NCBI RefSeq assembly: GCF_009735625.1
Contig: NZ_CP046244.1
Coordinates: forward strand, 2,480,001 to 2,544,000
Source: Moorella glycerini
GTDB taxonomy: Bacteria > Bacillota > DSM-521 > Neomoorellales > Neomoorellaceae
Direction of reading: 5' to 3'
DNA: 64,000 nt
The translations under genes and the position numbers were made by a program. Positions 27,115-58,098 of this stretch are shown piece after piece; position 1 is the stretch's first letter; every line of letters begins with the position of its first letter. Below the pieces are notes generated by a model that saw only the letters and a list, made by a program, of their open reading frames with translations, did not search any database and was not told the origin of the DNA.

Positions 27115-28518
27115 ATGGTTGACCTTATAGTTCAAAACGGCATCTTGCTAACCATGGATCAAGAACGCCGGGTATTTCGCGGGTCAATGGCAATCAATGG
27201 CGGTAAAATTGTGGCTATTGGCGATTGTTACCATTTAGAGGCAAGTAAAACTATTGATGCTACTAATTGCGTGGTTATGCCAGGCATGATAAATTGTCAT
27301 ACGCACATTTATCAAGCCCTCATCGAAGGCATTGGCTACGACATGCACTTTGAACCCTGGAATTGGCGTTTCTTATTTCCCATCGTTTCGCGCATGAGCC
27401 CCGAACATTCTGCTATAAGTGCGGAACTAGCCAGCCTGGAGATGATAAAGTCGGGGACCACTATGGTATGTGACCACTGGTATATGCACACTTCCTTTCA
27501 AAACATACGCCAGGTGGCCGAGGCCCTGGATCGTAGCGGCATCCGCGCCAACATCATCTACGGCCTGCTAGACCAGACCTTTGCCGGCGAGCGTATCAAT
27601 TCGGAATATATGACCATGATTCACGACAAGGACAACTTGATTGAAGACGCCCGCGATTTTGTCCGGGAATGGCACGGCAGCAATCGCACCATAGTTTCCA
27701 TCGGCGCCGGGTCGAGTGAGGATGCTTCGGAGGCCTTGTTGATTAAATCCAAGGAACTGGCGGATGAATTGTGCATCCAGGTGAACACCCACCTGGCCGG
27801 GTGGCAGGATATCCTGGCCTACTGCTACCGAAAATACGGAATGCGGGATTTGGAATTCATGCATAGCCGCGGTCTCACCGGGCCCACCTCGGTCTTTGTG
27901 CATGCCGTCTGGTTAACCCCCGAAGAAATAAACATCATAGCTGAAACAGGCAGCCGCATTGTCCACTGCCCGGTGGCCAACGCCCTCTTAGGCTACGGGG
28001 TGGCGCCAGTTCCAGCCATGCTGGCGGCAGGCATCCCCGTGGGCCTGGGCACCGATGGGGCAGCCAGCTACACCTATGATCTTTTTGAGGTGTTGAAAGC
28101 TGCTGCCATGATCCAAAAAGTACACAACATGTCGGCTGATCTGTTGACCGCGGAACAGGCCCTGGAGATGGCAACTATTGGCGGGGCCAGGGTTCTGGGG
28201 GTCGATTCCCAAGTGGGCTCCCTGGAAATAGGGAAGGAAGCCGATGTGATCCTAGTGGATTTTGATAGTCCCCACCTGTTGCCTATTAACCGGGTAGTTC
28301 CCAAACTGGTTTACAGTGCTAAAGGCAGTGATGTGCGGACGGTAATAATCAACGGCAAAATAGTGATGGAAGACCGTAAGGTCCTGACAGTGGATGAAAA
28401 AGCCATCAAAGAACGGGCTCTACAGGCTGCTGCCGAACTGGTGCATAATGCCGGCCCGGAAACCGAGGCATTGTTGCGGGGAGCCTGGGGAGGCAAACGC
28501 CCCTACTGGCGTAGCTAA
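27115..28518 (+). CDS. Amidohydrolase (TRZ/ATZ group), first of four in the cluster
   Basis: A 467-residue metal-dependent hydrolase with the full barrel: metal ligands His62 and His64 (NCHTHIYQ), His226 (NTHLAGW), His263 (VHAVWL) and Asp314 (LGTDGAAS), plus the C-terminal small-domain block GSLEIGKEADVILVD. The usual catalytic glutamate after the third histidine (HLxE) is replaced here: the motif reads HLAG. That argues against an ordinary aminohydrolase mechanism and suggests a ring-opening or altered chemistry. It is the first gene after the tandem-terminator leader and lies 31 bases before an AOR gene. Its substrate is probably a nitrogen heterocycle or its derivative (inference). Confidence 0.88.
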   Translation: MVDLIVQNGILLTMDQERRVFRGSMAINGGKIVAIGDCYHLEASKTIDATNCVVMPGMINCHTHIYQALIEGIGYDMHFEPWNWRFLFPIVSRMSPEHSAISAELASLEMIKSGTTMVCDHWYMHTSFQNIRQVAEALDRSGIRANIIYGLLDQTFAGERINSEYMTMIHDKDNLIEDARDFVREWHGSNRTIVSIGAGSSEDASEALLIKSKELADELCIQVNTHLAGWQDILAYCYRKYGMRDLEFMHSRGLTGPTSVFVHAVWLTPEEINIIAETGSRIVHCPVANALLGYGVAPVPAMLAAGIPVGLGTDGAASYTYDLFEVLKAAAMIQKVHNMSADLLTAEQALEMATIGGARVLGVDSQVGSLEIGKEADVILVDFDSPHLLPINRVVPKLVYSAKGSDVRTVIINGKIVMEDRKVLTVDEKAIKERALQAAAELVHNAGPETEALLRGAWGGKRPYWRS

Positions 28519-28549
28519 GACTTAAAACCCGTGCATCGAGGTGTAGATC

Positions 28550-30370
28550 ATGGCCCGTTTTGGTACCCTGCTGCGCATTAACTTAACCCTTGAGCAGGCC
28601 AGGGAAGAAGAGATCAACCCGGACGTTCTGGAGCAGTTCGTAGGCGGTAAAGGGCTGGGAGCCTGGTACCTTTTTAATGAAATTCCCACGGGCTGCGACC
28701 CTTTAGGTGAGGAGAACAAATTATTTATGGCGCCCGGCGTCTTAAGCGGGACGCCGGCACCGGGCGCTTCCAAATATTTTGTAGTTACAAAATCGCCACT
28801 AACCGGTATATTCTTAGATACCAACTCAGGTGGCCATTTCGGGCCAGAATTGAAGGCCACGGGTCACGACCTGGTGATCATCGAAGGCCGAGCCTCGCGC
28901 CCGACGTGGATTTATATTGAGAATGACAAAGTAAGCTTTATTGCGGCCGAGGACCTCTGGGGCAAAGGGATATACGAGACAGAGACCATTATTCGTGAGC
29001 GCTTGAAGGATCCCCGGGTGCGGTGCGCTTCTATCGGCCCGGCCGGGGAAAACCTGGTGCGCTATGCCTGCATCGCCAATGATTATTCCCGGCACCTGGG
29101 GAGAGGCGGTGCCGGCGCCGTAATGGGTTCCAAAAATCTTAAGGCCATCGCTGTGCGGGGTTGGCAGGATGTAAAGGTGGCCCGGCCGGAACTGTTTGAG
29201 CAGGCGGTAAAGGCCGCCGTAGCCTGGGTCATGCAGAACGGATGGGTCGCCTTGAAGCGCCGCTGGGGCACCTCTGAAGCCGTGGAAATAATGAATCAGC
29301 AGGGCATCTGGCCGGTGAATAATTTTAGTGCTACTACCTTTGAGGGAGTAGATCGGATTAACCACGAAGCCTTTGACCGCGGCCTGGTAAGGAGGCTGGC
29401 CTGCGCCACCTGCCCGGTCGCCTGTTCTAAAGGCTACCGTGATACCACTTATACCGGCGGAGAAGTCGAAGGTCCGGAATTCGAAACCATCACTTTGCTG
29501 GGGGCCAACCTGGGCCTGGCCGATCCCCAGGCTATAGCCGCAGCCAACTATCTATGCAACAACTATGGTCTAGACACGATTTCCACGGGTGCCGTTATCG
29601 GCCTGGTTCTGGACGGTTTGCGCCAGGGGAAGTTGACCCAAAACCAATTAGGGTTGCCGGAGAACAAGACTGGGGTAGAGCTGGTGCTGTGGTTAGTTAA
29701 CGCTATCGCCCGGCGCCAGGGTTGCGGAGACCTGCTGGCCCAGGGCTCCCGGCGTATGGCGGAAGAATTGGGGTTGGGGGATACGGCGCCCCAGGTTAAG
29801 GGCATGGAAATGTCGGCCTACGACCCGCGGGCTTCTTACGGCATAGGCCTGGCCTACCAGACCTCGGACCGGGGAGCCTGTCACCTCAGGACCTGGCCCA
29901 TCGGCCGGGAGATAAGCGGCGAGCTGCCGCCGCGGAACTCCATTGAGGGCAAGCCCGAATTCGTCAAACGGCAGCAGGATGAGAAAGCAGCCCAGGAGTG
30001 CCTGGGGGTGTGTCAGTTCCCCTACGGCATAGGGTTACTGGGTGACGAACTCATTAATTTGCTGAATGCGGCCATAGGAACCAATTTCACAGTGGATAGT
30101 TTTCGCCGGGTAGGCGAGAGAATCTGGAATCTGGCGCGGCTGTTCAACGTAAGGGAGGGCCTGAGCCGCAAGGATGACCTTTTGCCTCTCAAGTTTAGCA
30201 TTGAACCCTTACCTGATGGGTTATCCAGAGGCAAGACCTTGAGTTACCCTTTGCAGGAACAAATGCTGGACCGCTACTACCAGCTTCGCGGCTGGGATGA
30301 AGACGGCATACCTTCGGCCGCAAAACTGCAAGAACTGGGTTTACAGCTTAAGGTACCGGGAGGAAAGTGA
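28550..30370 (+). CDS. Aldehyde:ferredoxin oxidoreductase family protein (AOR-1)
   Basis: A 606-residue tungsten-type AOR. It has the N-terminal pterin-binding domain, the RGGAGAVMGSKNLKAIAVRG motif near 185-204, the [4Fe-4S] ligands Cys285, Cys288 and Cys292 with a C-terminal Cys484 or Cys488, and the central GLDTISTGAVIG block. AORs oxidise aldehydes to acids, or run in reverse, with ferredoxin, using a tungsten bis-pyranopterin. A polyferredoxin-like gene follows after six bases. The order amidohydrolase-AOR-Fe-S is repeated at 33.4-37.2 kb. Its substrate is likely a product of the neighbouring hydrolase, but closer identification is not possible. Confidence 0.9.
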   Translation: MARFGTLLRINLTLEQAREEEINPDVLEQFVGGKGLGAWYLFNEIPTGCDPLGEENKLFMAPGVLSGTPAPGASKYFVVTKSPLTGIFLDTNSGGHFGPELKATGHDLVIIEGRASRPTWIYIENDKVSFIAAEDLWGKGIYETETIIRERLKDPRVRCASIGPAGENLVRYACIANDYSRHLGRGGAGAVMGSKNLKAIAVRGWQDVKVARPELFEQAVKAAVAWVMQNGWVALKRRWGTSEAVEIMNQQGIWPVNNFSATTFEGVDRINHEAFDRGLVRRLACATCPVACSKGYRDTTYTGGEVEGPEFETITLLGANLGLADPQAIAAANYLCNNYGLDTISTGAVIGLVLDGLRQGKLTQNQLGLPENKTGVELVLWLVNAIARRQGCGDLLAQGSRRMAEELGLGDTAPQVKGMEMSAYDPRASYGIGLAYQTSDRGACHLRTWPIGREISGELPPRNSIEGKPEFVKRQQDEKAAQECLGVCQFPYGIGLLGDELINLLNAAIGTNFTVDSFRRVGERIWNLARLFNVREGLSRKDDLLPLKFSIEPLPDGLSRGKTLSYPLQEQMLDRYYQLRGWDEDGIPSAAKLQELGLQLKVPGGK

Positions 30371-30376
30371 AAGCCA

Positions 30377-30754
30377 ATGGCACGCCTTAAGTTAAATAAG
30401 AATTTTTGTACAGGGTGCCGCACCTGTGAATACGCCTGCTCTCTGGCCCACGGGGGTGCCTACAATCCCGAACACAGCCGCATCCGGTTATACCGGACGG
30501 GTTGCCTGCAGATAGAAGCTAGGTATTGCGTTCAATGTTCTCGCCCCCGGTGCGTAGGCGCTTGCCCCAGGGGAGCCATCCACAAGCAGGATGAAAAGGT
30601 TACCATCGATCCTGAGTTGTGTGACGGCTGCGGTATATGTCAAGGTATCTGTAATCGGATTATGCTGGACAGAGCCACCGAAAAAGCCGTAATGTGCGAT
30701 GGCTGTGGCGCGTGTGTCCCCGCCTGTCCTGAAAGAGCCCTGGCCCTTAGCTGA
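30377..30754 (+). CDS. 4Fe-4S ferredoxin-type partner of AOR-1
   Basis: A 125-residue protein with four cysteine groups: CTGCRTCEYAC, CVQCSRPRCVGAC, CDGCGICQGIC and CDGCGACVPAC. This pattern is of the HycB/AOR-associated polyferredoxin type. It starts six bases after the AOR-1 stop and is probably its dedicated electron acceptor. No signal peptide, so cytoplasmic. Confidence 0.9.
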   Translation: MARLKLNKNFCTGCRTCEYACSLAHGGAYNPEHSRIRLYRTGCLQIEARYCVQCSRPRCVGACPRGAIHKQDEKVTIDPELCDGCGICQGICNRIMLDRATEKAVMCDGCGACVPACPERALALS

Positions 30755-30804
30755 TGGGAGAGGCCGGGCAAATTATTTAGTGAATTCAAGGAGGAGAATT
30801 TCTA

Positions 30805-32154
30805 ATGATACTCATAAAAAATGCGCTAATTGTAACCCAGGACCAGGATCATACCGTCATCCGCAACGGTTACATCCAGGTGGACGGCGATCACATTTCG
30901 GCTCTGGGCCCTATGGAGGAATTGAGGGACCAGGAGATTCCGGGAGCCGAAGTCATTGATGCCAATGACCAGATCGCCATTCCCGGATTTGTGTGCTGTC
31001 ACAACCACCTCTATAGCGCCATTGTACGGAGTCTTCCCTATTCCGGTTATGATGACGTGGACTTTTCCTTCGTCTCCTGGATGGAACGTTTCTGGTTTGA
31101 CAAGTTGGAAAACAAGGTCAATAACGACGATGTATATATAGGCACGCTGATCAATTGCATGGAGCAGGTCAAGCGCGGCATCACCACCACGGCTGATACG
31201 GTGGAGGGCCCCAATGCCCTCCCGGGAACCCTTTTTGCGGCCGGCAAGGCAGCTCAAGAATCCGGTATGCGGGCCGTCCTGTCCTTTGAGACCACCGGCC
31301 GGATAAGCGAGGAAAACGCCAGGCTGGGTCTGGAGGAAAATATCAATTTTGTCGAAGCCATGCGTAAGAACCCCGGACGCATCGAGGGCCGTATCGGCGT
31401 CCACACTACCTACACCTGCTCCACTGAACTCATCCAGGCCGCCCGTCGGGAGGCCGACCGCCTGGGTTGCGGTCTGCAGATGCACTTATGCGATGACCGC
31501 TGGCACAGCTTTGATACCACCTTACGCTTTGGCAAGCGGGCCGTCAAATATCTGGAAGACATCGGCTTCCTGGGGCCTGACGTGTTATTCGCTCACGCCA
31601 GCTATATCGACCCTTTGCAGGACCCTGAGATCCTGGCCAAATATGACTGCAAGATTTCCCACCAGGCAGTTTCCAATGCCATCTTCGGGTTTTGGCCCAA
31701 TATGGTACCCTTAATTCGCGCCGGGGTAACGGTGGCCCTGGGCATAGACGGTATGACCCAATCCATGTTTGAAATTATGCGGGCGGCCCAAATGATTCAC
31801 CGGATACGCTATGAGAACCTGGAGCTGCTCTCCGATAGCGAGGTCTTTAATATGGCTACTATGAACGGGGCGCGGTGCCTCCAGAAGGAAAAGGAAATCG
31901 GCTCCCTGGAAGTGGGCAAAAAAGCTGATATCGTGCTCCTGGATAACACTAGCCCGGTGCCGGTGTTCGAAGGGAACGTATACAACTTCCTGGTCAGCGT
32001 AGCTGATAGTTCCCATGTGGATACGGTTCTGGTGGATGGTCAGGTGGTGGTTCGCCATAAGAAACACCAACTGGTGGATGAGGCCGCCATGCGCGAAGAG
32101 TGCCGGGAAAGGGCTAAAGATTTCTGGAAGCGGAACGGGTGGCCTATCCCATGA
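30805..32154 (+). CDS. Amidohydrolase, second of the cluster
   Basis: A 449-residue TRZ/ATZ-type hydrolase. Metal ligands are His66 and His68 (CCHNHLYS), His227 (MHLCDD), His264 (FAHASYID) and Asp315 (in LGIDGM, where relatives have GTDG). As in the first paralogue, the HLxE glutamate is missing (HLCD). The 3' end overlaps an M20 deacylase gene (ATGA), a coupling which suggests sequential hydrolysis of amide or ureido bonds. ATG behind AAGGAGGAG. The strongly altered active-site loops make substrate transfer from known deaminases unsafe. Confidence 0.88.
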   Translation: MILIKNALIVTQDQDHTVIRNGYIQVDGDHISALGPMEELRDQEIPGAEVIDANDQIAIPGFVCCHNHLYSAIVRSLPYSGYDDVDFSFVSWMERFWFDKLENKVNNDDVYIGTLINCMEQVKRGITTTADTVEGPNALPGTLFAAGKAAQESGMRAVLSFETTGRISEENARLGLEENINFVEAMRKNPGRIEGRIGVHTTYTCSTELIQAARREADRLGCGLQMHLCDDRWHSFDTTLRFGKRAVKYLEDIGFLGPDVLFAHASYIDPLQDPEILAKYDCKISHQAVSNAIFGFWPNMVPLIRAGVTVALGIDGMTQSMFEIMRAAQMIHRIRYENLELLSDSEVFNMATMNGARCLQKEKEIGSLEVGKKADIVLLDNTSPVPVFEGNVYNFLVSVADSSHVDTVLVDGQVVVRHKKHQLVDEAAMREECRERAKDFWKRNGWPIP

Positions 32155-33422
32155 ACAAACCCCGGGTAAAGGCGGCGGACGCGGACGTCAAAACGATTTC
32201 GGAACCGGAAACCCTTGTGGGACGGCCCGGCGGGATATCCCGGGAGCAGGTTGTGGAGCTCACCAGCAAATTGATCGCCATTCCCAGCGTAAACGGGGAA
32301 GAGGGCTGCCTTGGGGAATACCTGCGGGAACTCTTCCAAATTCTGGGCCTCCAGGTAGTCACCCAGGAAGTGGCCCCTGGCAGGTTTAATGTCCTCGGGA
32401 TATGGCCACCCATTGAAGAGATCGCAGTCGCGACAGCAGGCCTTCTGCTTCACGCTCACTATGATACGGCTGCCCCCTACGATATGGAGGAGCCCTTCTC
32501 GGGAGCTGTCAGAGGAGGTTATATTTGGGGCCGGGGCACTGTAGACCAGAAAGGGGGCCTGGCAGCAGCCATCATGGCGGTGGCGACGGTAAAAAGCCTG
32601 GGGTTTAAGCCGAGCAAGCCCGTTGTAGTGGCCGCCGTGGTGGATGAAGAGGCTGAACATCGCGGGAGCAGCCGCCTGGTACAAAGCGGCCTGAAGGCGG
32701 ATATGGCCATAGTGACTGAGCCCTCAAGCTTGAGGATAGTCCCGGGCTGTAAGGGCACCGTACCCCTGAAAATCGAGGTGGAGGGGAGGGCGGCCCACGG
32801 CTGCCGGCCCTGGCTGGGAATCAACGCAGTGGCCCGGGCGCTGCCAATCTTGAAGCGTCTTTTCGAGCTTACCTACCCGGAAGTAGATCTGGGGCCCGAG
32901 CTGGGCCGTATCCGGGGGTCCTTGAATGTAGGGCTGATCCAGGGCGGAGTGGCCTACAACATGGTACCTGCCAGTTGCACTATATGGCTGGATCGCCGGA
33001 CGGTTCCCGGCGAAACCCCAGCAGGGGTAATGGCCGAAATACAAAAAGTCCTGACCCTGGCGAGAGAAGAGGTGCCGGACTTAAAGGCGGATGTCAGCAT
33101 CGCCCGTCCCGATTGGAACTGGGAGCCCATCAGGAAGCGCGGACTGAATCCCGCTTTGACTGCGGTGGACTCGGCGGTTGTTTCCCTGGTACGGGAGACT
33201 CACCAGCAGGTGCTGGGGAAAGACCCGGTGCTATATTTTACCGATGGTTATAACGAACTGGATTTTCTGGTAAACGACCTGGGCATTCCCTCCATCCAGT
33301 ACGGGCCAGGCGACTCCAGGTTGGCCCATACCTCTGAGGAAAGGGTGGAGGTGGAGGAACTGATAACCTGCACCGAGGTTTACGCCCGCCTGATCCTTAA
33401 GGCTTGCGGAGGGGAGGTATGA
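32151..33422 (+). CDS. M20-family metallohydrolase (ArgE/DapE/ACY1-like)
   Basis: A 423-residue zinc amidohydrolase. Metal and catalytic motifs are LLHAHYDTAAP, RGTVDQKGGLAA and VVDEEAEHRG; the dimerisation domain contains EGRAAHG and the final metal histidine is in LAHTSEERVEV. I use ATG 32151, overlapping the stop of the upstream amidohydrolase, though GTG 32139 is in frame. Relatives remove acyl, succinyl, formyl or carbamoyl groups from amino acids, and related M20 genes occur with ssnA and xdh genes in enteric purine-related clusters. Here it may cleave a ring-opened N-acyl or ureido acid (inference). Confidence 0.88.
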   Translation: MNKPRVKAADADVKTISEPETLVGRPGGISREQVVELTSKLIAIPSVNGEEGCLGEYLRELFQILGLQVVTQEVAPGRFNVLGIWPPIEEIAVATAGLLLHAHYDTAAPYDMEEPFSGAVRGGYIWGRGTVDQKGGLAAAIMAVATVKSLGFKPSKPVVVAAVVDEEAEHRGSSRLVQSGLKADMAIVTEPSSLRIVPGCKGTVPLKIEVEGRAAHGCRPWLGINAVARALPILKRLFELTYPEVDLGPELGRIRGSLNVGLIQGGVAYNMVPASCTIWLDRRTVPGETPAGVMAEIQKVLTLAREEVPDLKADVSIARPDWNWEPIRKRGLNPALTAVDSAVVSLVRETHQQVLGKDPVLYFTDGYNELDFLVNDLGIPSIQYGPGDSRLAHTSEERVEVEELITCTEVYARLILKACGGEV

Positions 33423-33425
33423 GCA

Positions 33426-34766
33426 TTGTCGGCAATTCCCCAGAAGGCGGACCTGTTGCTTACCGGCGGCTATGTGCTAACCATGAATGAGCGGCAGGAG
33501 CGCCTGGTTAAAGGAGCGGTGGCCATTAAAGGGAGCCGCCTGGTAGGCGTGGGCGAGGCGGAGGCCTTAAAGGCTCAATTTGTGGCCGACAAAGTTATTG
33601 ATTGTACCGGTGCTATCATAATGCCCGGTCTGGTAAATGCCCATACCCATGAAACCCTTACCCGGGGCCTGGCCGAGGATTTGCCCTTGATGCGCTGGCT
33701 GCAAGAGATCTGTTATCCCCTTGAGAAGAATTATACCGCCGCAGATATGCAGGCGGCAGCCCTCATGAACCAGCTGGAAATGATAAGAGGAGGCATTACC
33801 TGCTTTATCGATATTTTCCGCTTTGCGGATGCCGCAGCAGCGGTGGCCCGGGAATCGGGCCTTCGGGCCATCTTCTCCCCCCAGATTATTGACGAGTTCT
33901 CCTCCTTTGGGGAATCCCTGCCCCGCACCGAAAGGCTCATAAAGGAGTGGCACGGTTGCTGCGACAACCGGATCCAGGTGTGGGTGGGAGTGCATGCGCC
34001 CTATTCCAACTCACCGGCGGTTTACCGCCAGGCCCGGGAACTGGCCAACCGCTACGGGGTGGGCCTCCACACTCATCTGGCGGAAACCCGCGATGAAGTG
34101 CGCCTTATCGCCGAGAAATATGGCAAGACTCCGGCCCGGCATCTTTTTGATCTGGGAGTTTTTGACGGCCCCTCGGTGGTGGCCCACTGCGTGCACCTCT
34201 CGGAAGAGGATATGGATATCCTGGCCCGGCAGAAGGTGGGGATTGCTTACAATCCCACGAGCAATATTAAAATGGCGGCCGGCATAGCCCCGGTTCCCCA
34301 GATGCTGGCCAAAGGCTGCCGGGTGGGGTTAGGTACGGATTCAAACTTAAGCAATAACAATTTAGATATGTTTGAAGAAATGAGATGGGGTTCCTACATC
34401 CAGAAAATGGCTCATAATGATGCCGGGATCCTGCCGGCTTACCGGATGCTGCACCTGGCCACCATGGGTAGCGCTGCTGCCCTGGGTTTGGATAAGGAAA
34501 TTGGCTCCCTGGAAGTGGGAAAAAAGGCGGACATTATAGTGTTAAGCCTTAAGGCGCCCCACCTGTGGCCTGTTTATACAGACCGGGCCGACAATGTGGT
34601 GGAGCAGATAGTGTATTCGGCCAGGGCTGACGACGTAATTACCACTATTGTGGATGGCCGCCTCCTTATGGAAGACAAAAAAGTTTTAACCATTGATGAA
34701 GATAGGGCCTTCCATCAGGTGCAGAGTGCTGCTGCCAGCCTGTATGAAAGGAGTTTTGGGCAGTGA
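33426..34766 (+). CDS. Amidohydrolase, third of the cluster (canonical active site)
   Basis: A 446-residue hydrolase of the MTA/SAH deaminase-SsnA group with an intact site: His73 and His75 (NAHTHETL), His217 and Glu220 (HTHLAET), His254 (VAHCVHL) and Asp305 (LGTDSNLSNNN). It therefore probably deaminates or hydrolyses an aromatic amine or ring. The start is TTG 33426, seven bases after GGAGGT; the overlapping ATG at 33419 is in another frame and soon stops. The stop overlaps the GTG of AOR-2, so hydrolase and AOR are translationally coupled. Confidence 0.9.
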   Translation: MSAIPQKADLLLTGGYVLTMNERQERLVKGAVAIKGSRLVGVGEAEALKAQFVADKVIDCTGAIIMPGLVNAHTHETLTRGLAEDLPLMRWLQEICYPLEKNYTAADMQAAALMNQLEMIRGGITCFIDIFRFADAAAAVARESGLRAIFSPQIIDEFSSFGESLPRTERLIKEWHGCCDNRIQVWVGVHAPYSNSPAVYRQARELANRYGVGLHTHLAETRDEVRLIAEKYGKTPARHLFDLGVFDGPSVVAHCVHLSEEDMDILARQKVGIAYNPTSNIKMAAGIAPVPQMLAKGCRVGLGTDSNLSNNNLDMFEEMRWGSYIQKMAHNDAGILPAYRMLHLATMGSAAALGLDKEIGSLEVGKKADIIVLSLKAPHLWPVYTDRADNVVEQIVYSARADDVITTIVDGRLLMEDKKVLTIDEDRAFHQVQSAAASLYERSFGQ

Positions 34767-44746: not shown

Positions 44747-44758
44747 AAGGTGGGAAAC

Positions 44759-46781: not shown

Positions 46782-46849
46782 CTGGGGACTGTAGTGTGCT
46801 TGAGGCTACCTGCTGGGCTACGGTGTCTAAACTTGAATTCTTACAGGTG

Positions 46850-49014: not shown

Positions 49015-49040
49015 ATAACTTAAGGTAAGGTGGCCCGGAA

Positions 49041-50015: not shown

Positions 50016-50025
50016 AAAGCAAATC

Positions 50026-52836
50026 ATGAACAAGATAGCAGTACGCCTTACTGTTAACGGCCAGGAAGTAGTGGCCGAGGTTAAACCCCAAATGACCCTT
50101 TTGGAATTCTTGCGCACCCAGCTGGGCCTGGTGGGAGCCAAGAACGGCTGCGCCCGGGGTCACTGCGGGGCCTGCACGGTGATAGTCAACGGCCAGGCCC
50201 GGCGTTCCTGCCTCTTGCCCATGGCCAGGATGGACGGTACGGTAGTGGAAACCATCGAAGGCCTGGCGCCAAACGGTCATCTCCACCCCCTGCAAGAAGC
50301 CTTTTTGGCGGCGGGAGCTGTGCAATGCGGCTTTTGTACACCCGGCATGATCATGGCGGCTAAAGCTCTGCTGGATCGGAACCCCGACCCCAGTGAGCAC
50401 GAAATCAAGGAAGCTTTAAAGCACAACCTTTGCCGCTGCACCGGATATGTCAAAATCATTAAGGCGGTGCGCATGGCGGCAGCCGCCTTGTCCGGCCGGA
50501 CTGCTGTGTCGCTGGCTTTTCCCCAGGAATCCGACGTGGTGGGCAGGTCCGTGCCCAGGGTGGACGGCCTGGCCAAAGTGAAGGGCGAGCCCCTCTACAC
50601 CGATGACTTCCGCCTGGAGGGAGCGCTGGAAGGCCGCGCCCTGCGGAGCCCTTATCCCCATGCGGAGATCCTGTCCATCGACGTATCGGCTGCCCGCCGG
50701 GCTCCCGGCATCAAAGCCGTGCTGACGGCGGCCGACATACCGGGCCGCAAAACATTTGGCCTTATTACTCCCCATCAGCCCGTACTGGCGGAAGATCGGG
50801 TGCGCTATGTAGGTGACCCGGTAGCCCTGGTCCTGGGGGAGACTTCCGAGGAAGTAGAGGAGGCCTTAAAACTTATCAAAGTGGAATATCGCCCCTTGGA
50901 AGTAATAGACTCTCCCTTCCGGGCCCTGGAGGAACACGCCCCGGACCTGCATGAAGGAGGTAACGTGCTGGCCCACATCAAAGTACGCAAGGGCAATATC
51001 GAGACCGGGTTTGCCCAGGCCGATGTGGTGCTGGAGGGGGATTACTACGTTCCTTTCATTGAGCATGGCTACCTGGAACCCGAAGCCGCCCTGGCCAGGG
51101 TAGGGGAGGACGGCGTACTCACCGTCTGGTGCCCAAGCCAGAGCTCCTTTGCCTTCCAGAAGGACATCTGCGCTACCTTGAACCTGCCGGAAGAAAAGGT
51201 GAGGGTGATATACCGGCCGGCAGGAGGAGCCTTTGGTGGTCGGGAAGAGCCGACAGTACAGATCCTGTGTGCCCTGGGAGCCTGGGTTACCGGCCGCCCG
51301 GTGCGCATGGTAATGACCCGGGAGGAATCCATTGCCGTCTCTACTAAACGCCATGCTGAATACCTCCACTATAGGTTGGGCGCCACCCGGCAGGGCAAGC
51401 TGACGGTCCTGGAAGCCAGGATTATAGGCGACACCGGGGCCTACGCCTCAGCGGGGGAGGCGGTACTTTTCCGTTCAGCGGCTTTTGCGGGGGGACCCTA
51501 CGAGATCCCTCATGCCAAGGTTGATGCCTTTGCTGTTTATACCAACCATCCACCGGGGGGCGCCATGCGCGGCTTCGGCAGCACGCAGCCGACCTTTGCC
51601 ATGGAAGTCATGATGGACCGCCTGGCCGAGGCCCTGGGCCTGGATCCCTTTACGTTGCGCGAACTCAACGGGTGGGACGTGGGTAAAAAGACGTTGACCG
51701 GCCAGATCCTGGACCACAGCGTAGGGTTTAAAGAAACCCTGGCCAAGGTCAAGGAAGCTCTCTCAAAGGAAGATTTACCTCAGCCCCGGCCGGGCCGGAA
51801 GAGGGGCATCGGTATTGCTGCGGCAGTCAAGAACGTGGGGCTCGGGTCCGGTATGGTCGACGGCGCCGGCGCCATCCTGGAGCTCACCACCGCGGGGGAA
51901 TTGCTGGTGAAGGTGGGCTGTGTAGATACGGGCCAGGGATCGGACACGGCCATGGCCCAAATTGCCGCCGAGGCCACTGGTGTGCCCTTTAGCGCCATCA
52001 GGGTCCTGGCCAGCGACACCCACCAGACCCTGGACGGCGGCGTTACTACCGCCTCCCGGCAGACCTTTGTGTCCGGCAACGCCGTGCGCATAGCCGGGGG
52101 TCGCTTCCGGTCGGCTTTGCTGGAGTTTGTCTCCCAAGAGATAGGTTATCCGGCTGAAAAACTGACCCTCAAGAATGGCGGGGTAGAGATGTTGGGCAAC
52201 ACCCAGAGAATATCCTTAACTCTTCAGGAAATTGCAGCTTTAGCTCAAGAGCGGGGCCAGGCACTCAGGGCCGAGTATTTCTACATCGCTCCCCGGACCT
52301 ACCCCCTTAAAGAACGCTGCGATAATGAGGAATTCGATTTCGAGGAGTACCGTCTGCATTTTGCTTACTGTTTTGGGACTCAGGCGGCCGTGGTGGAGGT
52401 TGATGAAGAAACGGGGGAGGTTGAGGTCCTTAAAGTTATTGCCGCCCACGACGTGGGCCGTCCCATCAATCCCCTGGCCGTGGAAGGCCAGATCGAAGGG
52501 GCCGTGATGATGGGCTTGGGATATGCCCTGTCGGAGGAATTCCGCCTGAAGGGGGGCCAGGTGGAAACCAACACCCTGGCCAAGCTTAGACTCCCTAAAA
52601 TTACCCAGACGCCGGAAATAGAGGTCCTAGTGGTGGACGATTACCATCCCTTCGGCCCCTATGGCGCCAAAGGCATGGGAGAATTGCCCCTTAATCCTAC
52701 GGCTCCGGCCATTATTAACGCCATATACAATGCTGTTGGAGTTAGGATTAATTCTCTTCCGGCCACCCGAGAAAAAATAAAAGAACTTATGGGTGAGAAG
52801 AAGGGGATAACTGGACCTCGTAGTCGGCAGGGGTGA
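50026..52836 (+). CDS. Xanthine dehydrogenase-family molybdenum hydroxylase, fused [2Fe-2S] and Mo domains
   Basis: A 936-residue fusion. Residues 1-160 hold two [2Fe-2S] clusters (Cys42, 47, 50, 62 and Cys101, 104, 136, 138). Residues 175-936 form the molybdopterin cytosine dinucleotide subunit, with GGAFGGREEP, RGFGSTQPTFAMEV, ASRQTFVSGNA and the catalytic Glu886 in KGMGELPLN. This arrangement, lacking an FAD domain, is that of Desulfovibrio Mop-type aldehyde oxidoreductase and of some purine hydroxylases. It hydroxylates a C-H next to ring nitrogen, or an aldehyde. A remnant resembling the FAD subunit follows, so a separate flavin subunit may have been lost. Confidence 0.9.
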   Translation: MNKIAVRLTVNGQEVVAEVKPQMTLLEFLRTQLGLVGAKNGCARGHCGACTVIVNGQARRSCLLPMARMDGTVVETIEGLAPNGHLHPLQEAFLAAGAVQCGFCTPGMIMAAKALLDRNPDPSEHEIKEALKHNLCRCTGYVKIIKAVRMAAAALSGRTAVSLAFPQESDVVGRSVPRVDGLAKVKGEPLYTDDFRLEGALEGRALRSPYPHAEILSIDVSAARRAPGIKAVLTAADIPGRKTFGLITPHQPVLAEDRVRYVGDPVALVLGETSEEVEEALKLIKVEYRPLEVIDSPFRALEEHAPDLHEGGNVLAHIKVRKGNIETGFAQADVVLEGDYYVPFIEHGYLEPEAALARVGEDGVLTVWCPSQSSFAFQKDICATLNLPEEKVRVIYRPAGGAFGGREEPTVQILCALGAWVTGRPVRMVMTREESIAVSTKRHAEYLHYRLGATRQGKLTVLEARIIGDTGAYASAGEAVLFRSAAFAGGPYEIPHAKVDAFAVYTNHPPGGAMRGFGSTQPTFAMEVMMDRLAEALGLDPFTLRELNGWDVGKKTLTGQILDHSVGFKETLAKVKEALSKEDLPQPRPGRKRGIGIAAAVKNVGLGSGMVDGAGAILELTTAGELLVKVGCVDTGQGSDTAMAQIAAEATGVPFSAIRVLASDTHQTLDGGVTTASRQTFVSGNAVRIAGGRFRSALLEFVSQEIGYPAEKLTLKNGGVEMLGNTQRISLTLQEIAALAQERGQALRAEYFYIAPRTYPLKERCDNEEFDFEEYRLHFAYCFGTQAAVVEVDEETGEVEVLKVIAAHDVGRPINPLAVEGQIEGAVMMGLGYALSEEFRLKGGQVETNTLAKLRLPKITQTPEIEVLVVDDYHPFGPYGAKGMGELPLNPTAPAIINAIYNAVGVRINSLPATREKIKELMGEKKGITGPRSRQG

Positions 52837-52838
52837 AG

Positions 52839-53006
52839 ATGACTTTGAAAGAGAAGGTGGACCTGGCCATTGTTTGTCAGGCGGCCCTGACCATGAACGC
52901 GGAGCGATGCGGAGAGGCCAAGACGGCCTTTGGCCAGGGCATTGACGTTACCATCAAGACTGGGCTGGAAACCTTAAGGCTTGCGGGAGGTGCTTTGAAA
53001 CGTTAA
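52839..53006 (+). pseudogene. Possible remnant of a CoxM-type FAD subunit (3' end)
   Basis: A 55-codon frame, three bases after the hydroxylase gene, reads EKVDLAIVCQAALTMNAERC and GEAKTAFGQG. This resembles the C-terminal domain of FAD-binding subunits of xanthine dehydrogenase/CO dehydrogenase (pattern VDLA-V-VA, then CREARIALG). The rest of such a subunit (usually about 280 residues) is absent, so I read it as what is left after an internal deletion, or a minimal derived peptide. The similarity is by eye and moderate. Confidence 0.5.
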
Positions 53007-53026
53007 CTACTGAAAGGGAAAGGCGC

Positions 53027-54190
53027 ATTATCGACTTTTGTCGCCGCTTGATTCAGGCCCCCAGTATAACCGGCCAGGAAAAGAATATCGCTTCCCTGGT
53101 TCAGCAGGAGATGGTTTCTTTAGGCTATACCGAGACCTGGATCGATGAGCTGGGCAATGTGATAGGTCGCGTGGCAGGCCGGGGGCAGGGCCCTGCCATC
53201 CTCTTCGATGGCCACCTGGACACGGTGGATGTAGCCGAGCCCGGGGCCTGGCAACACCCACCCTTCCAGGGCCGACTGGTTGACGGCAGAATCTACGGCC
53301 GGGGAGCTGCCGACATGAAGGGAGCCTTAGCCGCCATGGTGTGTGCCATAGGTTTCCTGGCCCAGGATGGCGTAAATAGGGGCGGAGATCTCTACGTAAC
53401 CGGTACTGTGGTGGAAGAAGTGGCTGAAGGAGTTGCTTTGAGCCATATTTTAAAAAAAATACGCCCGGCCGCAGTGGTTATCGGCGAAGCCACCGGCCTA
53501 AACCTCAACTTTGGCCAGCGCGGCAGGGCGGAAATCATTCTCGAAACCCGGGGCCGGCCGGCCCATTCCGCCAACCCAGAAGTCGGTGTAAATGCCGTAT
53601 ATAAAATGCTGCCCCTGGTAGAGGCCGTCCGTCACCTGGAGCTTCCCATGGATCCCCTTCTGGGCCCGGCCATAATGGAACTGACGGACATCATCTCGTC
53701 GCCCTACCCGGGAGCCTCGGTAGTTCCCCAGGGCTGTCGTGCAACCTACGATAGGCGTCTGCTGGTGGGGGAAGAACCGGACCAGGTCCTGGCGCCCCTT
53801 CAAGCCATAATTTCCGCAAGCCGGCTTGAAGATCCGGAACTTGAGGCCGAAGCCATGCTGGCTCCCCTGGATATTACTACTTACACCGGCAGGGCTTTAA
53901 GGGGCCTAAAATTTGCCCCGGCCTGGTGTATTGATAAGGGGCACCCCCTAGTGGCCGCAGCCCGGGAAGCCCTCTTCAAGGCAAGCCTGCAGTCTCCCCT
54001 TGGAACCTACCGTTTTTGCACCAACGGCAGCGGGTCGATGGGGAACCTGGGGATACCCACCGTCGGGTTCGGACCCGGCCGGGAAAGCCAGGCCCATGTT
54101 AGCGATGAGTATATTGAGGTGGATGAACTATTGGCTGCGGCCAAAGGCTACTACAGCCTGGCCGGAACTTTGAGCACCAGGGGCTGGTAG
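53027..54190 (+). CDS. M20-family metallohydrolase (second), irregular start
   Basis: An M20 deacylase with DGHLDTVDV, GRGAADMKGALAAM, VVEEVAEGV and the final VSDEYIEVDEL. Homology-like sequence (ERRIIDFCRRLIQAPSITGQE) extends upstream of the first canonical start, TTG 53048, but that upstream frame contains no ATG, GTG or TTG before a stop at 52943. Either translation starts at ATT 53027, eight bases after GAAAGGG, or the true start was lost when the adjoining FAD-subunit gene was deleted; then TTG 53048 gives a shortened 380-residue protein. Relatives include YgeY-like peptidases of purine-related clusters. The rest of the protein is intact. Confidence 0.8.
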   Translation: MIDFCRRLIQAPSITGQEKNIASLVQQEMVSLGYTETWIDELGNVIGRVAGRGQGPAILFDGHLDTVDVAEPGAWQHPPFQGRLVDGRIYGRGAADMKGALAAMVCAIGFLAQDGVNRGGDLYVTGTVVEEVAEGVALSHILKKIRPAAVVIGEATGLNLNFGQRGRAEIILETRGRPAHSANPEVGVNAVYKMLPLVEAVRHLELPMDPLLGPAIMELTDIISSPYPGASVVPQGCRATYDRRLLVGEEPDQVLAPLQAIISASRLEDPELEAEAMLAPLDITTYTGRALRGLKFAPAWCIDKGHPLVAAAREALFKASLQSPLGTYRFCTNGSGSMGNLGIPTVGFGPGRESQAHVSDEYIEVDELLAAAKGYYSLAGTLSTRGW

Positions 54191-54284
54191 GTGAAAAAGA
54201 AGGACTTAAATCCCTCGAGGGAGAAATTATTATTAAAAGAAATTTGTTAACGTATCTCTCGATGCTGCTTAGGAGGAGACGCCG

Positions 54285-55178
54285 ATGAAAGATATAGGCT
54301 TTATTGGTCTGGGTATCATGGGGAAGCCCATGGCCAAGAATTTGCTCAGGGCCGGTTACCGGCTGGTAGTTTATAACCGGACCGCCTCGAAAATGGAAGA
54401 AGTGGTGGCGGCGGGAGCCCAGCCGGCCCAATCCAACAGGGAAGTGGCCGAGAAATCGGAAGTTATAATAACTATGCTACCTAACTCACCGGAAGTTAAA
54501 GAGGTAGTCCTCGGCCCCAACGGGGTTTTGGAAGGGGCCAGGCCCGGCTCCATTATTATTGATATGAGCTCTATAGCACCCCTGGTCACCATGGAAATAG
54601 CTAAGATAGCGCAGGCTAAAGGCGTCCGGATGCTGGATGCCCCCGTCAGCGGGGGAGAGCCCGCGGCTATACAGGGCACCCTTTCCATTATGGTCGGGGG
54701 CCCGGAAGAAGATTTCCAGGCCTGCTATGATATACTCCGGGCCATGGGTTCTTCTGTAGTGCGAGTGGGCCCCATTGGTTTTGGCAACCTTGCCAAGCTG
54801 GCCAACCAGATCATCGTTGCCATAAACATTGCCGCCATGGCCGAAGCCTTTACTCTGGCTTGCAAAGCCGGCCTGGAACCTGCAGTGCTGTATGAAGCTA
54901 TCAAAGGAGGGCTGGCCGGCAGCAAGGTGCTGGATGCCAAGGCGCCGCTGGTCATGAACCGCAAGTTTGACCCGGGTTTCCGTATCAATCTGCATATTAA
55001 AGACTTAACCAACGTTCTGGAAACAAGCCACCAGCTGGGAGTACCCATGCCCCTTACATCCAGCGTCCTGGAAATGATGCACGCCATGAAGGTGGACGGA
55101 CATGGGGATGAGGATCACGGGGCATTGGCCAAATTCTATGAAAAGCTGGCCCAGACGGAAATCAAGACCAGGCAGTAA
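54285..55178 (+). CDS. 3-Hydroxyisobutyrate dehydrogenase-family protein
   Basis: A 297-residue beta-hydroxyacid dehydrogenase: Rossmann motif GFIGLGIMGKPMAKNL, substrate loop DAPVSGGEPAAIQGTLSIM, the catalytic lysine in LAKLANQIIVAINIAAMAEA, and KDLTNVLETSHQLGVPMPL. The family includes 3-hydroxyisobutyrate, tartronate semialdehyde and 2-(hydroxymethyl)glutarate dehydrogenases. A CoA-acylating semialdehyde dehydrogenase gene follows directly, so the likely product is a semialdehyde such as methylmalonate or malonate semialdehyde (inference). AGGAGGAG precedes the ATG. Confidence 0.9.
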   Translation: MKDIGFIGLGIMGKPMAKNLLRAGYRLVVYNRTASKMEEVVAAGAQPAQSNREVAEKSEVIITMLPNSPEVKEVVLGPNGVLEGARPGSIIIDMSSIAPLVTMEIAKIAQAKGVRMLDAPVSGGEPAAIQGTLSIMVGGPEEDFQACYDILRAMGSSVVRVGPIGFGNLAKLANQIIVAINIAAMAEAFTLACKAGLEPAVLYEAIKGGLAGSKVLDAKAPLVMNRKFDPGFRINLHIKDLTNVLETSHQLGVPMPLTSSVLEMMHAMKVDGHGDEDHGALAKFYEKLAQTEIKTRQ

Positions 55179-55231
55179 TACCCTCGGCTGGCAGGGTGAA
55201 AGCTGCACTATTCTCCGGGAGGAAACCGCCT

Positions 55232-56749
55232 ATGGTAGAAGTAAAAAGGTTAGGATATTGTGTCAACGGGGAATGGAAACAATCAAAGACCACCCAATAT
55301 ATGCCGGTCACTAACTCCAGCACGGGTGAAATAATTGCAGAAGTCCCACGGTGTACAGCGGAGGAGGTTAACGAAGCGGTGGAGGCGGCTCGGGCCGCCT
55401 TCCCGGCGTGGTCATCAACACCTGTGACCGAAAGAGCAGAGATCATGTTTCGGTTCAAAGTGGCCCTGGAAGCTCACTTAGAGGAACTCACGTTGCTGGT
55501 GGCCACAGAATTAGGGAAAAACCTGGACGAATCCCGGGGAGATGTGCTGAAGGCCATTGAAGGTGTGCAACTGGCCTGTGCTTGCCCCATTTTAATGCAG
55601 GGCGATTCTTTGATGAACGTGTCCCAGGGTTTTGATACGGTTATGTACCGGGAGCCCCTGGGGGTGTTTGCCGGTATAGTTCCATTTAACTTTCCTGCCA
55701 TGATCCCCTTTGGATGGATGCTCCCCCTATGCATTACCACCGGGAATACTTTTGTCCTTAAAGCAGCCAGCCTTACGCCCCTAACGGCTATGCGGATGCT
55801 GGAGTTATTACATGAGGTGGGGCTACCGCGGGGGGTAGTTAACCTGATTACCTGCGGTCGTAACGAGGTAGACATCCTTCTCAAGCACCCGGATGTTAGG
55901 GGTGTTTCCTTCGTGGGTTCCACCAGCGTAGGCCGGCATGTTTACGCCACCGCTTCGGCCTACGGGAAGAGGGTGCAGGCCCTGTGCGAAGCCAAGAATC
56001 ATGGCCTGGTCCTACGAGATGCCGACCTGGAGAATTCCGCCCGGGTAATAGTAAACGCTACCTTCGGTTGCGCCGGCCAAAGGTGCATGGCTCTGCCGGT
56101 AGTAGTGGTGGAAGAAGTAGTAGCCGATGAATTTGTTTCCTACCTGGTGAAATTTGCCCGGGAAAGAAAGATAGGCTGTGCCTATGACCCGGAGACCGAA
56201 TTAGGCCCGGTGGTTTCGGCCGAGCACAAAGAATTTATTTTTAACTGGATTGCTAAAGGAATAGAAGAAGGGGCTCTGCTTATCCTGGACGGGCGAAACG
56301 TAGTGATTAAAGGCTTTGAAGGGGGCTATTTCATTGGGCCAACTATATTTGACCATGTTAAACCGGGAATGAGCATCGGGGATTATGAGGTCTTCGGTCC
56401 CGTCACTTGTATTAAGCGAGTCCGGGATTTTGAGGAGGGCTTAAGTTTGATGAACGCCAATCCCTTTGGCAACGGGGCCACCATTTTTACCCAGAGCGGG
56501 TACTATGCCCGGGAATTCGTCCGCCGGACCCAGGCCGGAATGGTGGGCGTCAATGTGGGTATCCCAGTGCCTATAGCGGTTTTTCCCTTTGCCGGGCACA
56601 AAAATTCCTTCTTTGGGGACCTCCACGTTCTGGGGAAGGATGGAGTAGCCTTCTATACTGAAGCCAAATGCGTTACCTCAAGATGGTTTGATGCCAAGAT
56701 GGAAAACACCAGGATCGGTACCTGGGAAGGTACCATCACCAGGGTTTAG
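55232..56749 (+). CDS. CoA-acylating methylmalonate-semialdehyde dehydrogenase-like protein
   Basis: I use ATG 55232 behind GGGAGG; a GTG at 55196 would add 12 residues. The 505-residue aldehyde dehydrogenase has PFNFPAMIPFGWMLP, VGSTSVGR, EAKNHGLV and the catalytic Cys285 in GCAGQRCMAL. The Asn in AKNH, where other aldehyde dehydrogenases have glutamate, is the hallmark of CoA-acylating MmsA/IolA enzymes, which make propionyl-CoA or acetyl-CoA with loss of CO2. It follows the 3-hydroxyisobutyrate dehydrogenase-like gene, making a two-step route from a beta-hydroxy acid to an acyl-CoA. This gives the cluster an outlet into acetyl-CoA metabolism. Confidence 0.92.
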   Translation: MVEVKRLGYCVNGEWKQSKTTQYMPVTNSSTGEIIAEVPRCTAEEVNEAVEAARAAFPAWSSTPVTERAEIMFRFKVALEAHLEELTLLVATELGKNLDESRGDVLKAIEGVQLACACPILMQGDSLMNVSQGFDTVMYREPLGVFAGIVPFNFPAMIPFGWMLPLCITTGNTFVLKAASLTPLTAMRMLELLHEVGLPRGVVNLITCGRNEVDILLKHPDVRGVSFVGSTSVGRHVYATASAYGKRVQALCEAKNHGLVLRDADLENSARVIVNATFGCAGQRCMALPVVVVEEVVADEFVSYLVKFARERKIGCAYDPETELGPVVSAEHKEFIFNWIAKGIEEGALLILDGRNVVIKGFEGGYFIGPTIFDHVKPGMSIGDYEVFGPVTCIKRVRDFEEGLSLMNANPFGNGATIFTQSGYYAREFVRRTQAGMVGVNVGIPVPIAVFPFAGHKNSFFGDLHVLGKDGVAFYTEAKCVTSRWFDAKMENTRIGTWEGTITRV

Positions 56750-56859
56750 CCTGGCCTAAAGAATTCCTTTCAGACCAGTTTAGCAGCGAGCAGGCAAGGT
56801 ATACTAGAATTCTTATTTTGGGGCGGTTTCCAATAGGCCAATGAGGGGTGGCAATCAAA

Positions 56860-58098
56860 ATGCAAATAACCAGGGAAATTGCCCAGGCAATTGTTGAGCG
56901 TTTTGCCAGCGTTTTAAGCAACGTAGGTATAGATTTTATCAACGCCCAAGGCTTAATCATCGGCACTACTAGCCCCGCTAAAATGAACGCTTATGACCAA
57001 AAAGCCATCATGGTTATAAAGCGTGCCGATCCTTTAGAAGTTGAAGGTGGGGGCCCAGAGGACCAGGTTACCCTGTATTTGCCGGTTTTCTTTAATGCCA
57101 CCATTGTTGGTGTAATTGCTACCTCAGGTAAACCCGACCTAGCCCGCCCCATCGCCCGCCTGGCCAAGGCGATGACCGAAATGGTACTCCATCAGTCTTT
57201 TAAAAGTACCAAGAAGATGATGGAAAATCGGACTCAGGAGAGCTTTGTCCGGGATCTGGTATATAGCGACTATAAAGGCAACCCCAGCCTGGAGAGACTT
57301 ATAAGGCGGGAGGCTCTGGCTCTAGGTTACAATATAGATATTCCCTGGGCCGTGTTGGTGGTGGAAGTAAACAATCTGGCAGAAAAGACCCTGGAGAAGT
57401 ATAAATTCCCCAAGGATACCTTATCCACGGAAATTTTTAGTTCCCTACTGAAAGATGAGGTCCTGCAGTTATTACGGACCGACAGATACGGAGAGATCAT
57501 ATCTTTTATCGGTCGCCAGCACTTTGCTATATTACGTCCGGCAGCTACCGGCGACCAGTACAGTCTGCAGTCCGAGATCAATGATTATGCCCAGAAAATA
57601 GTCCAGGAGCTTCAGAACCGATTTGAACTGGATGCCACCATAGGTATTGGCGGAATCAAGAGCGGGGTTACAGGAATCAGCCAGAGCTTTAGGGAAGCCC
57701 TGGAAGCTATTAGCCTGGGCAGGCGGCTGCATAATGATAAGAAGGTCCACCATATTGATGAACTAGGCGTGGCCAGAATAATCAGCTTAATACCGAAGGA
57801 GATCCGGAGCACCATCATTGAAGTTTTTGGCAAAGGACGGGATTATCGAGCCCTGGAGGCAGAACTGCTACATACGGCTAAAATCTTTTGTAAAGAAAAC
57901 CTTAACGCTAGCCGGGCTGCGGAAGCCCTGTTTATTCACCGCAACACCCTTATGTACCGCTTAACCAAGATCAAAAAGATGACCGGTTTGGACCTGCACC
58001 TTTTTAATCATGCGGTGGAATTCTGGTTCTTATACCAAATGGCCTTGTTTGATAACCTGGAGCTAGTGCCGCCCCAGAAAAGACATACATCATATTAG
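56860..58098 (+). CDS. CdaR-type (sugar diacid regulator/PucR superfamily) transcription factor
   Basis: I place the start at ATG 56860 (MQITREIAQAIVERF), 11 bases after GAGGGG; GTG 56848 is also in frame. The 412-residue protein has an N-terminal sugar-diacid recognition domain (about 1-120: FINAQGLIIGTTSPAKM, LPVFFNATIVGVIATSG), a middle linker domain, and a C-terminal PucR helix-turn-helix (ASRAAEALFIHRNTLMYRLTKIKKMTGL). CdaR activates genes in response to glycerate or sugar diacids. As the last gene of the large catabolic cluster it is the best candidate for its regulator, and suggests a small hydroxy- or dicarboxylate inducer. Inverted AGAATTC elements about 40 bases apart in the upstream gap could be sites. 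Confidence 0.88.
   Translation: MQITREIAQAIVERFASVLSNVGIDFINAQGLIIGTTSPAKMNAYDQKAIMVIKRADPLEVEGGGPEDQVTLYLPVFFNATIVGVIATSGKPDLARPIARLAKAMTEMVLHQSFKSTKKMMENRTQESFVRDLVYSDYKGNPSLERLIRREALALGYNIDIPWAVLVVEVNNLAEKTLEKYKFPKDTLSTEIFSSLLKDEVLQLLRTDRYGEIISFIGRQHFAILRPAATGDQYSLQSEINDYAQKIVQELQNRFELDATIGIGGIKSGVTGISQSFREALEAISLGRRLHNDKKVHHIDELGVARIISLIPKEIRSTIIEVFGKGRDYRALEAELLHTAKIFCKENLNASRAAEALFIHRNTLMYRLTKIKKMTGLDLHLFNHAVEFWFLYQMALFDNLELVPPQKRHTSY

Follow-up and report, generated by a model that had tools for sequence, protein, structure and literature searches.

A candidate nitrogen-ring catabolic island in Moorella glycerini around a putative, diverged reductive purine-opening unit

What does a 31-kb run of 24 genes, all on the forward strand, allow Moorella glycerini to degrade? 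The island occupies positions 27115-58098 of the window, a stretch of 64,000 nucleotides (C1:2480001-2544000 of a 3.56-Mb, two-contig genome), and its Pfam and NCBIfam profile matches place amidohydrolases, aldehyde oxidoreductase (AOR)-family enzymes, a xanthine dehydrogenase (XDH)-type hydroxylase and an importer side by side. Every protein type named in the original prediction was recovered in its place, as was the common direction of the 24 genes, and the view that catabolism of a nitrogen heterocycle or a nucleoside is the likeliest role is supported. The island is best interpreted as a real catabolic locus that modifies the reductive purine route by re-tuning it and by adding carbon-skeleton and AOR parts; with it, the cell can probably use some compound with a nitrogen ring. 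We give about an even chance to the fuller proposal of a lineage-restricted locus around a diverged copy of the purine-opening unit, with the reactions, their order, the ferredoxin loop and the cotranscription as reconstructed here. The most interesting thread is AOR2, one of the AOR-family enzymes, with its relatives that carry Gln at position 427.

The proposed purine-opening couple

It was only in 2025 that the enzymes for reductive uric acid degradation were reported (PMC12507026). In this pathway, the XDH homologue XdhD makes 2,8-dioxopurine, and YgfK and SsnA act together, reducing and opening the purine ring, with UacX replacing YgfK in C. difficile (PMC12507026). The UacX assays used reduced methyl viologen (PMC12507026), in keeping with a reductase fed by ferredoxin. 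The island's likeness to the ssnA/xdh/ygeY clusters, proposed from the start, is sharpened by the matching relatives of its UacX-like and SsnA-like genes. In a tree of 48 UacX/PreA-type proteins (limited to matches longer than 250 residues and, YgfK apart, to proteins shorter than 480 residues), the PreA-like protein of the island joins the UacX proteins of its own genome and of genomes G016, G017, G067 and G170 (support 98/92), while E. coli PreA falls elsewhere. Its end branch measures 1.84 changes per column, and both of its 4Fe-4S motifs are intact. In a tree of 59 amidohydrolases (380 to 560 residues, skipping the short loci L011-L049, with the G017 SsnA gene lying outside the loci), the amidohydrolase AH2 joins the SsnA-like copies of its own genome, G016, G067 and G170 (Shimodaira-Hasegawa-like approximate likelihood ratio test [SH-aLRT], 89), with an end branch of 1.34 changes per column. 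AH2 is 29% identical to E. coli SsnA, scores 299 and 282 bits against SsnA models with cut-offs of 444 and 455.5, and carries Asp where most compared amidohydrolases carry Glu. The partner genomes shared by the two genes suggest that both were copied and re-tuned as a couple; given the long branches, this is a promising lead that falls short of proof.

Two further genes match the pathway. The island XDH groups with fused XDHs encoded beside or within ~3 kb of UacX (families f30/f80; SH-aLRT, 99) in a tree of proteins of at least 600 residues, from which split XDHs and those cut by a locus end were omitted (among them most of L073-L079, L083, L060 and L065). Its XdhD-type role is assigned by place and kind, E. 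coli XdhD being a long branch elsewhere with 28% identity. The YgeY protein exceeds the cut-off of PRK13004 (405 versus 321 bits) and falls under that of TIGR03526 (260 versus 321.5). The genes of the island are as follows, with the basis of each assignment in brackets.

27115-28518, +: AH1, amidohydrolase of the ATZ/TRZ type (Pfam, NCBIfam)
28550-30370, +: AOR1, AOR family, second-shell T-E-Y-H intact (Pfam, alignment)
30377-30754, +: FdA, polyferredoxin (Pfam)
30805-32154, +: AH2, diverged SsnA-like amidohydrolase (Pfam, NCBIfam, tree)
32139-33422, +: M20a, ArgE/DapE/YgeY-like (Pfam, NCBIfam)
33426-34766, +: AH3, amidohydrolase (Pfam, NCBIfam)
34763-36682, +: AOR2, AOR family, Gly at Tyr427 (Pfam, alignment, tree)
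36679-37152, +: FdB, polyferredoxin, 32% identity to E. coli YgfS (Pfam, sequence comparison)
37156-38091, +: DHDPS-family lyase (Pfam, NCBIfam, alignment)
38057-39748, +: IlvD-family dehydratase (Pfam, NCBIfam)
39780-40772, +: IlvC-family reductoisomerase (Pfam, NCBIfam)
40894-41985, +: PreA-like protein, diverged UacX-like reductase, DHO_dh domain and two 4Fe-4S motifs (Pfam, tree)
42118-43182, +: Bmp-family substrate-binding lipoprotein (Pfam)
43229-44746, +: ABC ATPase with two ABC_tran stretches (Pfam)
44750-45874, +: permease A (Pfam)
45837-46781, +: permease B (Pfam)
46796-48250, +: AH4, exceeding the 5'-deoxyadenosine deaminase model cut-off (549.8 versus 522) (Pfam, NCBIfam)
48253-49014, +: SDR dehydrogenase (Pfam, NCBIfam)
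49041-50015, +: 2-hydroxyacid dehydrogenase, glyoxylate-reductase-like, under the model cut-off (Pfam, NCBIfam)
50026-52836, +: XDH-type fused [2Fe-2S]/molybdenum hydroxylase (Pfam, NCBIfam, tree)
52839-53006, +: 55-codon open reading frame (ORF) in the 211-base gap between XDH and YgeY (ORF reading)
53048-54190, +: YgeY, exceeding the PRK13004 cut-off (Pfam, NCBIfam)
54285-55178, +: GarR-type tartronate semialdehyde reductase, exceeding two cut-offs (Pfam, NCBIfam)
55196-56749, +: MmsA, CoA-acylating (methyl)malonate semialdehyde dehydrogenase, exceeding its cut-off (Pfam, NCBIfam)
56848-58098, +: CdaR/PucR-type regulator (Pfam, NCBIfam)

The 55-codon ORF had no clear relative among the loci compared. 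The YgeY reading frame seems to extend upstream of its listed TTG by some 20 N-terminal residues, with no usual start codon there.

Is the island simply another cluster of the ordinary type for uric acid or xanthine? Elsewhere in the genome, a separate cluster (C1:505001-585000) holds homologues of ygfK, UacX, HyuA, YgeY, YgeW, SsnA, XDH, a PALP-type protein and the Bmp importer, at 35-52% identity to E. coli or archaeal queries, and it is probably the uric acid route of the genome. The island, with its UacX-like, SsnA-like, YgeY and XDH proteins, could share the missing HyuA, YgeW and PALP-type steps with that cluster. We consider this very unlikely, as AH2 and the PreA-like protein sit on much longer branches than their nearest copies in uric-acid-type clusters do, and DHDPS, IlvD, IlvC, GarR and MmsA have no part in the pathway as described (PMC12507026). 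Since the genome has this separate and fuller cluster, the island probably handles a different heterocycle.

Several observations weigh against a re-tuned purine-opening locus. The placements of the PreA-like protein and AH2 are unsure given their long branches, AH2 also scoring well under the SsnA cut-offs. The island XDH lies in a different part of the tree from the XDHs of its own genome, G016, G067 and G170, and the gene set is therefore a mosaic. No HyuA, YgeW or YgeX counterpart was found in the island with E. coli queries at E<=1e-8, and neither an OTCase nor a PALP domain is among its Pfam matches (UacY itself was not compared). In AH1, Gly replaces a Glu kept in most amidohydrolases compared. 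Moreover, the gaps of 121, 132, 211, 94 and 98 bases at five junctions leave room for several transcripts, and promoter-like sites showed no excess over shuffled sequence in either half of the scan. The many 4-base overlaps originally described shrink, with the listed starts, to two junctions (AH3/AOR2 and AOR2/FdB), three others overlapping by 16, 35 and 38 bases.

These gaps are also what would be expected of several independent neighboring operons serving different substrates (the amidohydrolase/AOR, DHDPS/IlvD/IlvC, importer/XDH and GarR/MmsA parts). The parts differ in their nearest relatives, and the genome has many scattered Bmp, amidohydrolase and AOR clusters. However, all 24 genes share one strand, and the first forward-strand terminator-like site in an intergenic gap is at 58193, directly after CdaR, in a weak scan (left half, 15 sites versus 19.2 in shuffles; right half, 30 versus 20.5, standard deviation 4.9). 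In addition, the SsnA-like and UacX-like genes, with their matching relatives, flank the DHDPS-IlvD-IlvC part. Separate operons seem improbable to us.

No equivalent island was found in the genomes sampled, which are samples rather than all genomes; the collection holds only 22 genomes of the host class. In the contig collection, AOR1 matched nine loci, none above 41% identity (a search that returns close relatives only and may miss near kin of the host genome). Its best other match in 18 family genomes was 45%, and four of 398 phylum genomes had a match at E<=1e-147, the three besides its own at 43-44%. The PreA-like protein had a match at E<=1e-38 in 25 of 299 phylum genomes, its own included, the best other being 36% identical. 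The locus can still be called undescribed within the sampled genomes and the open-licence PMC literature, where we found no described cluster with its gene set and, among the papers listed and judged partly by title, none that links enzymes of the AOR family to uric acid or amidohydrolase clusters.

The G+C content of the island (56.6%) differs from that of the window flanks (52.1% and 50.8%). Since 17 other stretches of the genome span 49.7% to 59.5%, composition does not prove a recent arrival. No clean insertion point could be named from the 16-kb left flank, which was the flank searched in the 18 family genomes, because it is itself patchy, with repeats and a transposase remnant at about 25.6-26.3 kb. 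These repeats, present in many copies across the family, and the remnant lie just left of the island, at 25.3-26.6 kb of the window. A DDE transposase gene is found at 8362-10176, and a nucleotidyltransferase (MNT-like) gene lies to the right of the island (58574-58945). Rfam gave no match across 25000-64000. At 6-2854, amidohydrolase, class II aldolase and IF-2B/MtnA-type isomerase genes stand in a row, which we take to resemble a 5'-deoxyadenosine/methylthioadenosine salvage set.

AOR2 and the Gln427 clade

The second-shell residues of AOR are Thr243, Glu313, Tyr427 and His448 (Pf numbering), of which Tyr427 was proposed to position the aldehyde; exchanges at this position are Trp, for which no activity was found, or His, and the ring-reducing BamB and the molybdenum protein YdhV are without the second-shell residues (PMC12096430). 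Whereas AOR1 and AOR3, a third AOR to the right of the island, keep all four (T-E-Y-H), AOR2 has Gly for Tyr427 (T-E-G-H). The view of both island AORs as plain aldehyde oxidizers is weakened by the loss of Tyr427 in AOR2 and by the place of AOR2 in a clade tied to purine-type clusters. Among 84 AORs, 54 are T-E-Y-H, 11 T-E-Q-H, 11 T-E-H-H and eight of other patterns, including AOR2. These AORs come from fetched loci rather than a random sample, minus matches under ~380 residues and nine loci that overlapped others or were AOR free. The 11 Gln forms and AOR2 make up one group of 12 (SH-aLRT, 96; tree of 84). Enlarging the set to 102, by 18 rows that complete the AFOR_N matches of the 11 XDH-bearing archaeal genomes and add one match from G016, left the same 11 Gln forms; 11 of the added rows (10 GAPOR-like by pattern, and L178) are little informative, as their Tyr427 region is poorly aligned.

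The Gln forms occur in five genomes, all of which have UacX: G310 (three of seven AORs), the host's own genome (three of 10 full-length ones), G016 (two of nine), G017 (two of the six found at E<=1e-100) and G067 (the one AOR fetched). The pattern was noted on nine sequences, and the full G067 gene, a fragment of which already looked alike, was fetched afterwards. That gene (L136, 2454-4355) has the Gln, lies 25 bases from an XDH iron-sulfur gene on the same strand (4381-4854), and belongs to a cluster with UacX, SsnA, HyuA, YgeW and YgeY homologues. The third Gln form of the host genome lies ~2.8 kb after a Bmp-type importer. Overall, six of the 11 are in or within 15 kb of UacX/SsnA-type clusters. 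With this limit, chosen after the data were seen, as the definition of linkage, Gln is carried by 6/8 linked versus 5/90 unlinked AORs (n=98, i.e., the 102 minus the three of the window and L168, which deviates in its catalytic columns); if an AOR at ~16 kb is also taken as linked, the figures are 6/9 versus 5/89. The P values (1e-5 and 3e-5) ignore kinship and are descriptive only.

G310, a 1.1-Mb draft recorded as Thaumarchaeota archaeon, has a locus (L004) with two YgeW-like genes, one HyuA-like, one SsnA-like and one GuaD-like (26%) gene, a PALP gene and UacX, together with three AOR-polyferredoxin pairs, their AORs being of the Gln clade. The XDH-type domain MoCoBD_1 was present in 13 of the 14 genomes searched and was not found in the G310 draft, whereas AFOR_N was present in all 14, with seven matches in G310. 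An XDH-type gene is present in each of the 11 other archaeal genomes that have a close UacX. Gln at 427 was seen in none of the 41 AFOR_N matches from these genomes, although 11 of the matches are poorly aligned there; two genomes with a more distant UacX, G523 and G594, were left out of this comparison. The G310 pattern is what an AOR-for-XDH swap would look like, although one draft genome is thin evidence. Apart from G310, close UacX proteins were seen in 11 of the 300 genomes searched (loci L118-L128), with SsnA-like and YqeA-like genes nearby in eight of the 11 and YgeW-like genes as well in six of these eight.

Because Tyr427 is exchanged for Gln (Gly in AOR2), many of these genes lie in UacX/SsnA clusters, in an archaeon as well as in bacteria, and no XDH was found in the archaeal draft, we speculate that AOR2 represents an unrecognized class of tungsten-type enzymes within the AOR family, with purine-like rings instead of aldehydes as substrates. 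AORs would then replace XDH in the archaeon, and the island would represent a tungsten-assisted opening of nitrogen heterocycles. We regard this as doubtful, since two linked AORs keep Tyr (L126 in G561, L161 in G310), five Gln forms are unlinked, AOR1 keeps Tyr inside the island, and the 1.1-Mb G310 draft may be incomplete. Moreover, the Gln forms and AOR2 retain both Glu313 and His448, so they may still carry out aldehyde chemistry. If true, a tungsten-type branch named after aldehydes would need a new function.

The AOR3 run (59568-63678, - strand) extends related content rightward past the island, as another AOR adjoining a nucleobase gene.

59568-60950, -: NCS2 nucleobase permease, final gene of the AOR3 run (Pfam, NCBIfam)
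61001-61444, -: ThiS/MoaD-like gene (sequence)
61275-61853, -: polyferredoxin of AOR3 (sequence)
61747-63678, -: AOR3, AOR family, T-E-Y-H intact (Pfam, alignment)

Across the whole genome, there are 27 Amidohydro_1, 13 AFOR_N and 8 MoCoBD_1 matches. Three of the AFOR_N matches are short pieces (C1:440703-454590), two of which score below the cut-off; they are probably relics of disrupted AOR genes.

Carbon-skeleton genes and a proposed route

The island IlvC and IlvD might be thought to serve branched-chain amino acid synthesis. This housekeeping role was rejected, as both are second genome copies: IlvC matches occur in 16 of 18 family genomes and IlvD matches in 17 of 18, and the own genome has two of each (46% and 54% alike, respectively), the other copies lying at C1:3134095 (IlvC) and C1:853416 (IlvD). 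IlvD exceeds the cut-offs of dihydroxy-acid dehydratase models, and the best structure match of IlvC is 6jcv, an archaeal-type reductoisomerase. The DHDPS-type protein keeps the Schiff-base Lys and lacks an Arg seen in the aligned DapA sequences. Read backwards, DHDPS-IlvD-IlvC would give a sensible catabolic order of reductoisomerase, dehydratase and lyase. GarR and MmsA exceed equivalog and subfamily cut-offs and would suit a tartronate- or malonate-type semialdehyde. The predicted final oxidation to an acyl-CoA has family names behind it, with MmsA over its cut-off.

A possible pathway would thus begin with a nucleoside or free nitrogen heterocycle entering via the Bmp importer and being deaminated or opened by AH4 (and AH1/AH3). 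The XDH-type enzyme would set the oxidation state of the ring, the UacX-like flavoprotein would reduce it with low-potential electrons, and AH2 would pull this reduction by opening the ring once it is reduced. YgeY and M20a may then remove ureido or acyl groups, while the carbon skeleton and any sugar acid would pass through IlvC, IlvD, the DHDPS-type lyase and GarR/MmsA to pyruvate, glycerate-type acids and acyl-CoA. AOR1 could oxidize an aldehyde intermediate, its electrons returning via its polyferredoxin to the UacX-like reductase. AOR2 may do the same or, more unusually, act on the heterocycle itself.

The same genes could be assembled into full nucleoside degradation. The base would be handled by the amidohydrolases, XDH and the PreA-like protein, and the ribose would be oxidized to ribonate (by SDR or AOR1), dehydrated by IlvD and cleaved by the DHDPS-type protein to pyruvate and glycolaldehyde; an AOR would oxidize the glycolaldehyde, and the hydroxyacid dehydrogenase and GarR would handle the steps through glycolate/glyoxylate and tartronate semialdehyde. 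The Bmp importer, whose family is used for nucleosides, and AH4, above its 5'-deoxyadenosine deaminase cut-off, speak for such a route. So does the recurrence of the DHDPS-IlvD pair near a hydroxyacid dehydrogenase in G016 (also with a GarR-type gene) and G010, with an AOR-polyferredoxin pair ~8 and ~18 kb away. However, neither a nucleoside hydrolase nor a phosphorylase is among the Pfam matches of the island, the scheme leaves no role for IlvC, and IlvD scores as a dihydroxy-acid dehydratase. We therefore consider this route unlikely.

If the island is a re-tuned copy of the purine-opening unit, the UacX-SsnA couple would be a general oxygen-free tool for dearomatizing nitrogen rings, and the island a concrete second case with a screenable substrate.

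Comparison with known systems

PreTA, the dihydropyrimidine dehydrogenase first offered as a parallel for the flavoprotein, shares the DHO_dh domain and 4Fe-4S motifs. Nonetheless, pyrimidine reduction of this type was rejected as the closest parallel, since the PreA-like protein groups with UacX and not with E. coli PreA, and no Pyr_redox protein or PreT-type partner is among the island Pfam matches. Nicotinate fermentation by Eubacterium barkeri shares enzyme types with the island (molybdenum hydroxylase, ring reductase, amidohydrolase and HIBADH-fold enzyme). This pathway was set aside because two enzyme kinds typical of it are missing from the same Pfam matches, which include no B12-mutase or serine-dehydratase-type domain. 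The Clostridium acidurici genome paper names three amidohydrolases, none assigned to xanthine, and tungsten was not found in its main text.

With AOR sensu stricto and the AorAB-type AOR (PMC12096430, PMC6365974), the island enzymes share the AOR domains, the Fe-S ligands, Glu313, His448 and an adjoining polyferredoxin gene. They differ by the Gly of AOR2 at Tyr427, where the 11 other members of its clade have Gln, and no FAD-subunit gene lies beside AOR1 or AOR2.

The reductive uric acid cluster (ygeWXY-hyuA-ygfK-ssnA-xdhD in E. coli, the uacX/uacY form in C. difficile; PMC12507026) shares with the island an XDH-type enzyme, a UacX-like reductase with two 4Fe-4S motifs, an SsnA-like amidohydrolase and YgeY. 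The island is without counterparts of HyuA, YgeW/UacY and YgeX, and its UacX- and SsnA-like proteins are strongly diverged. To this shared core it adds three further amidohydrolases and one more M20 enzyme, as well as two AOR/polyferredoxin pairs and a dehydratase/lyase/semialdehyde set.

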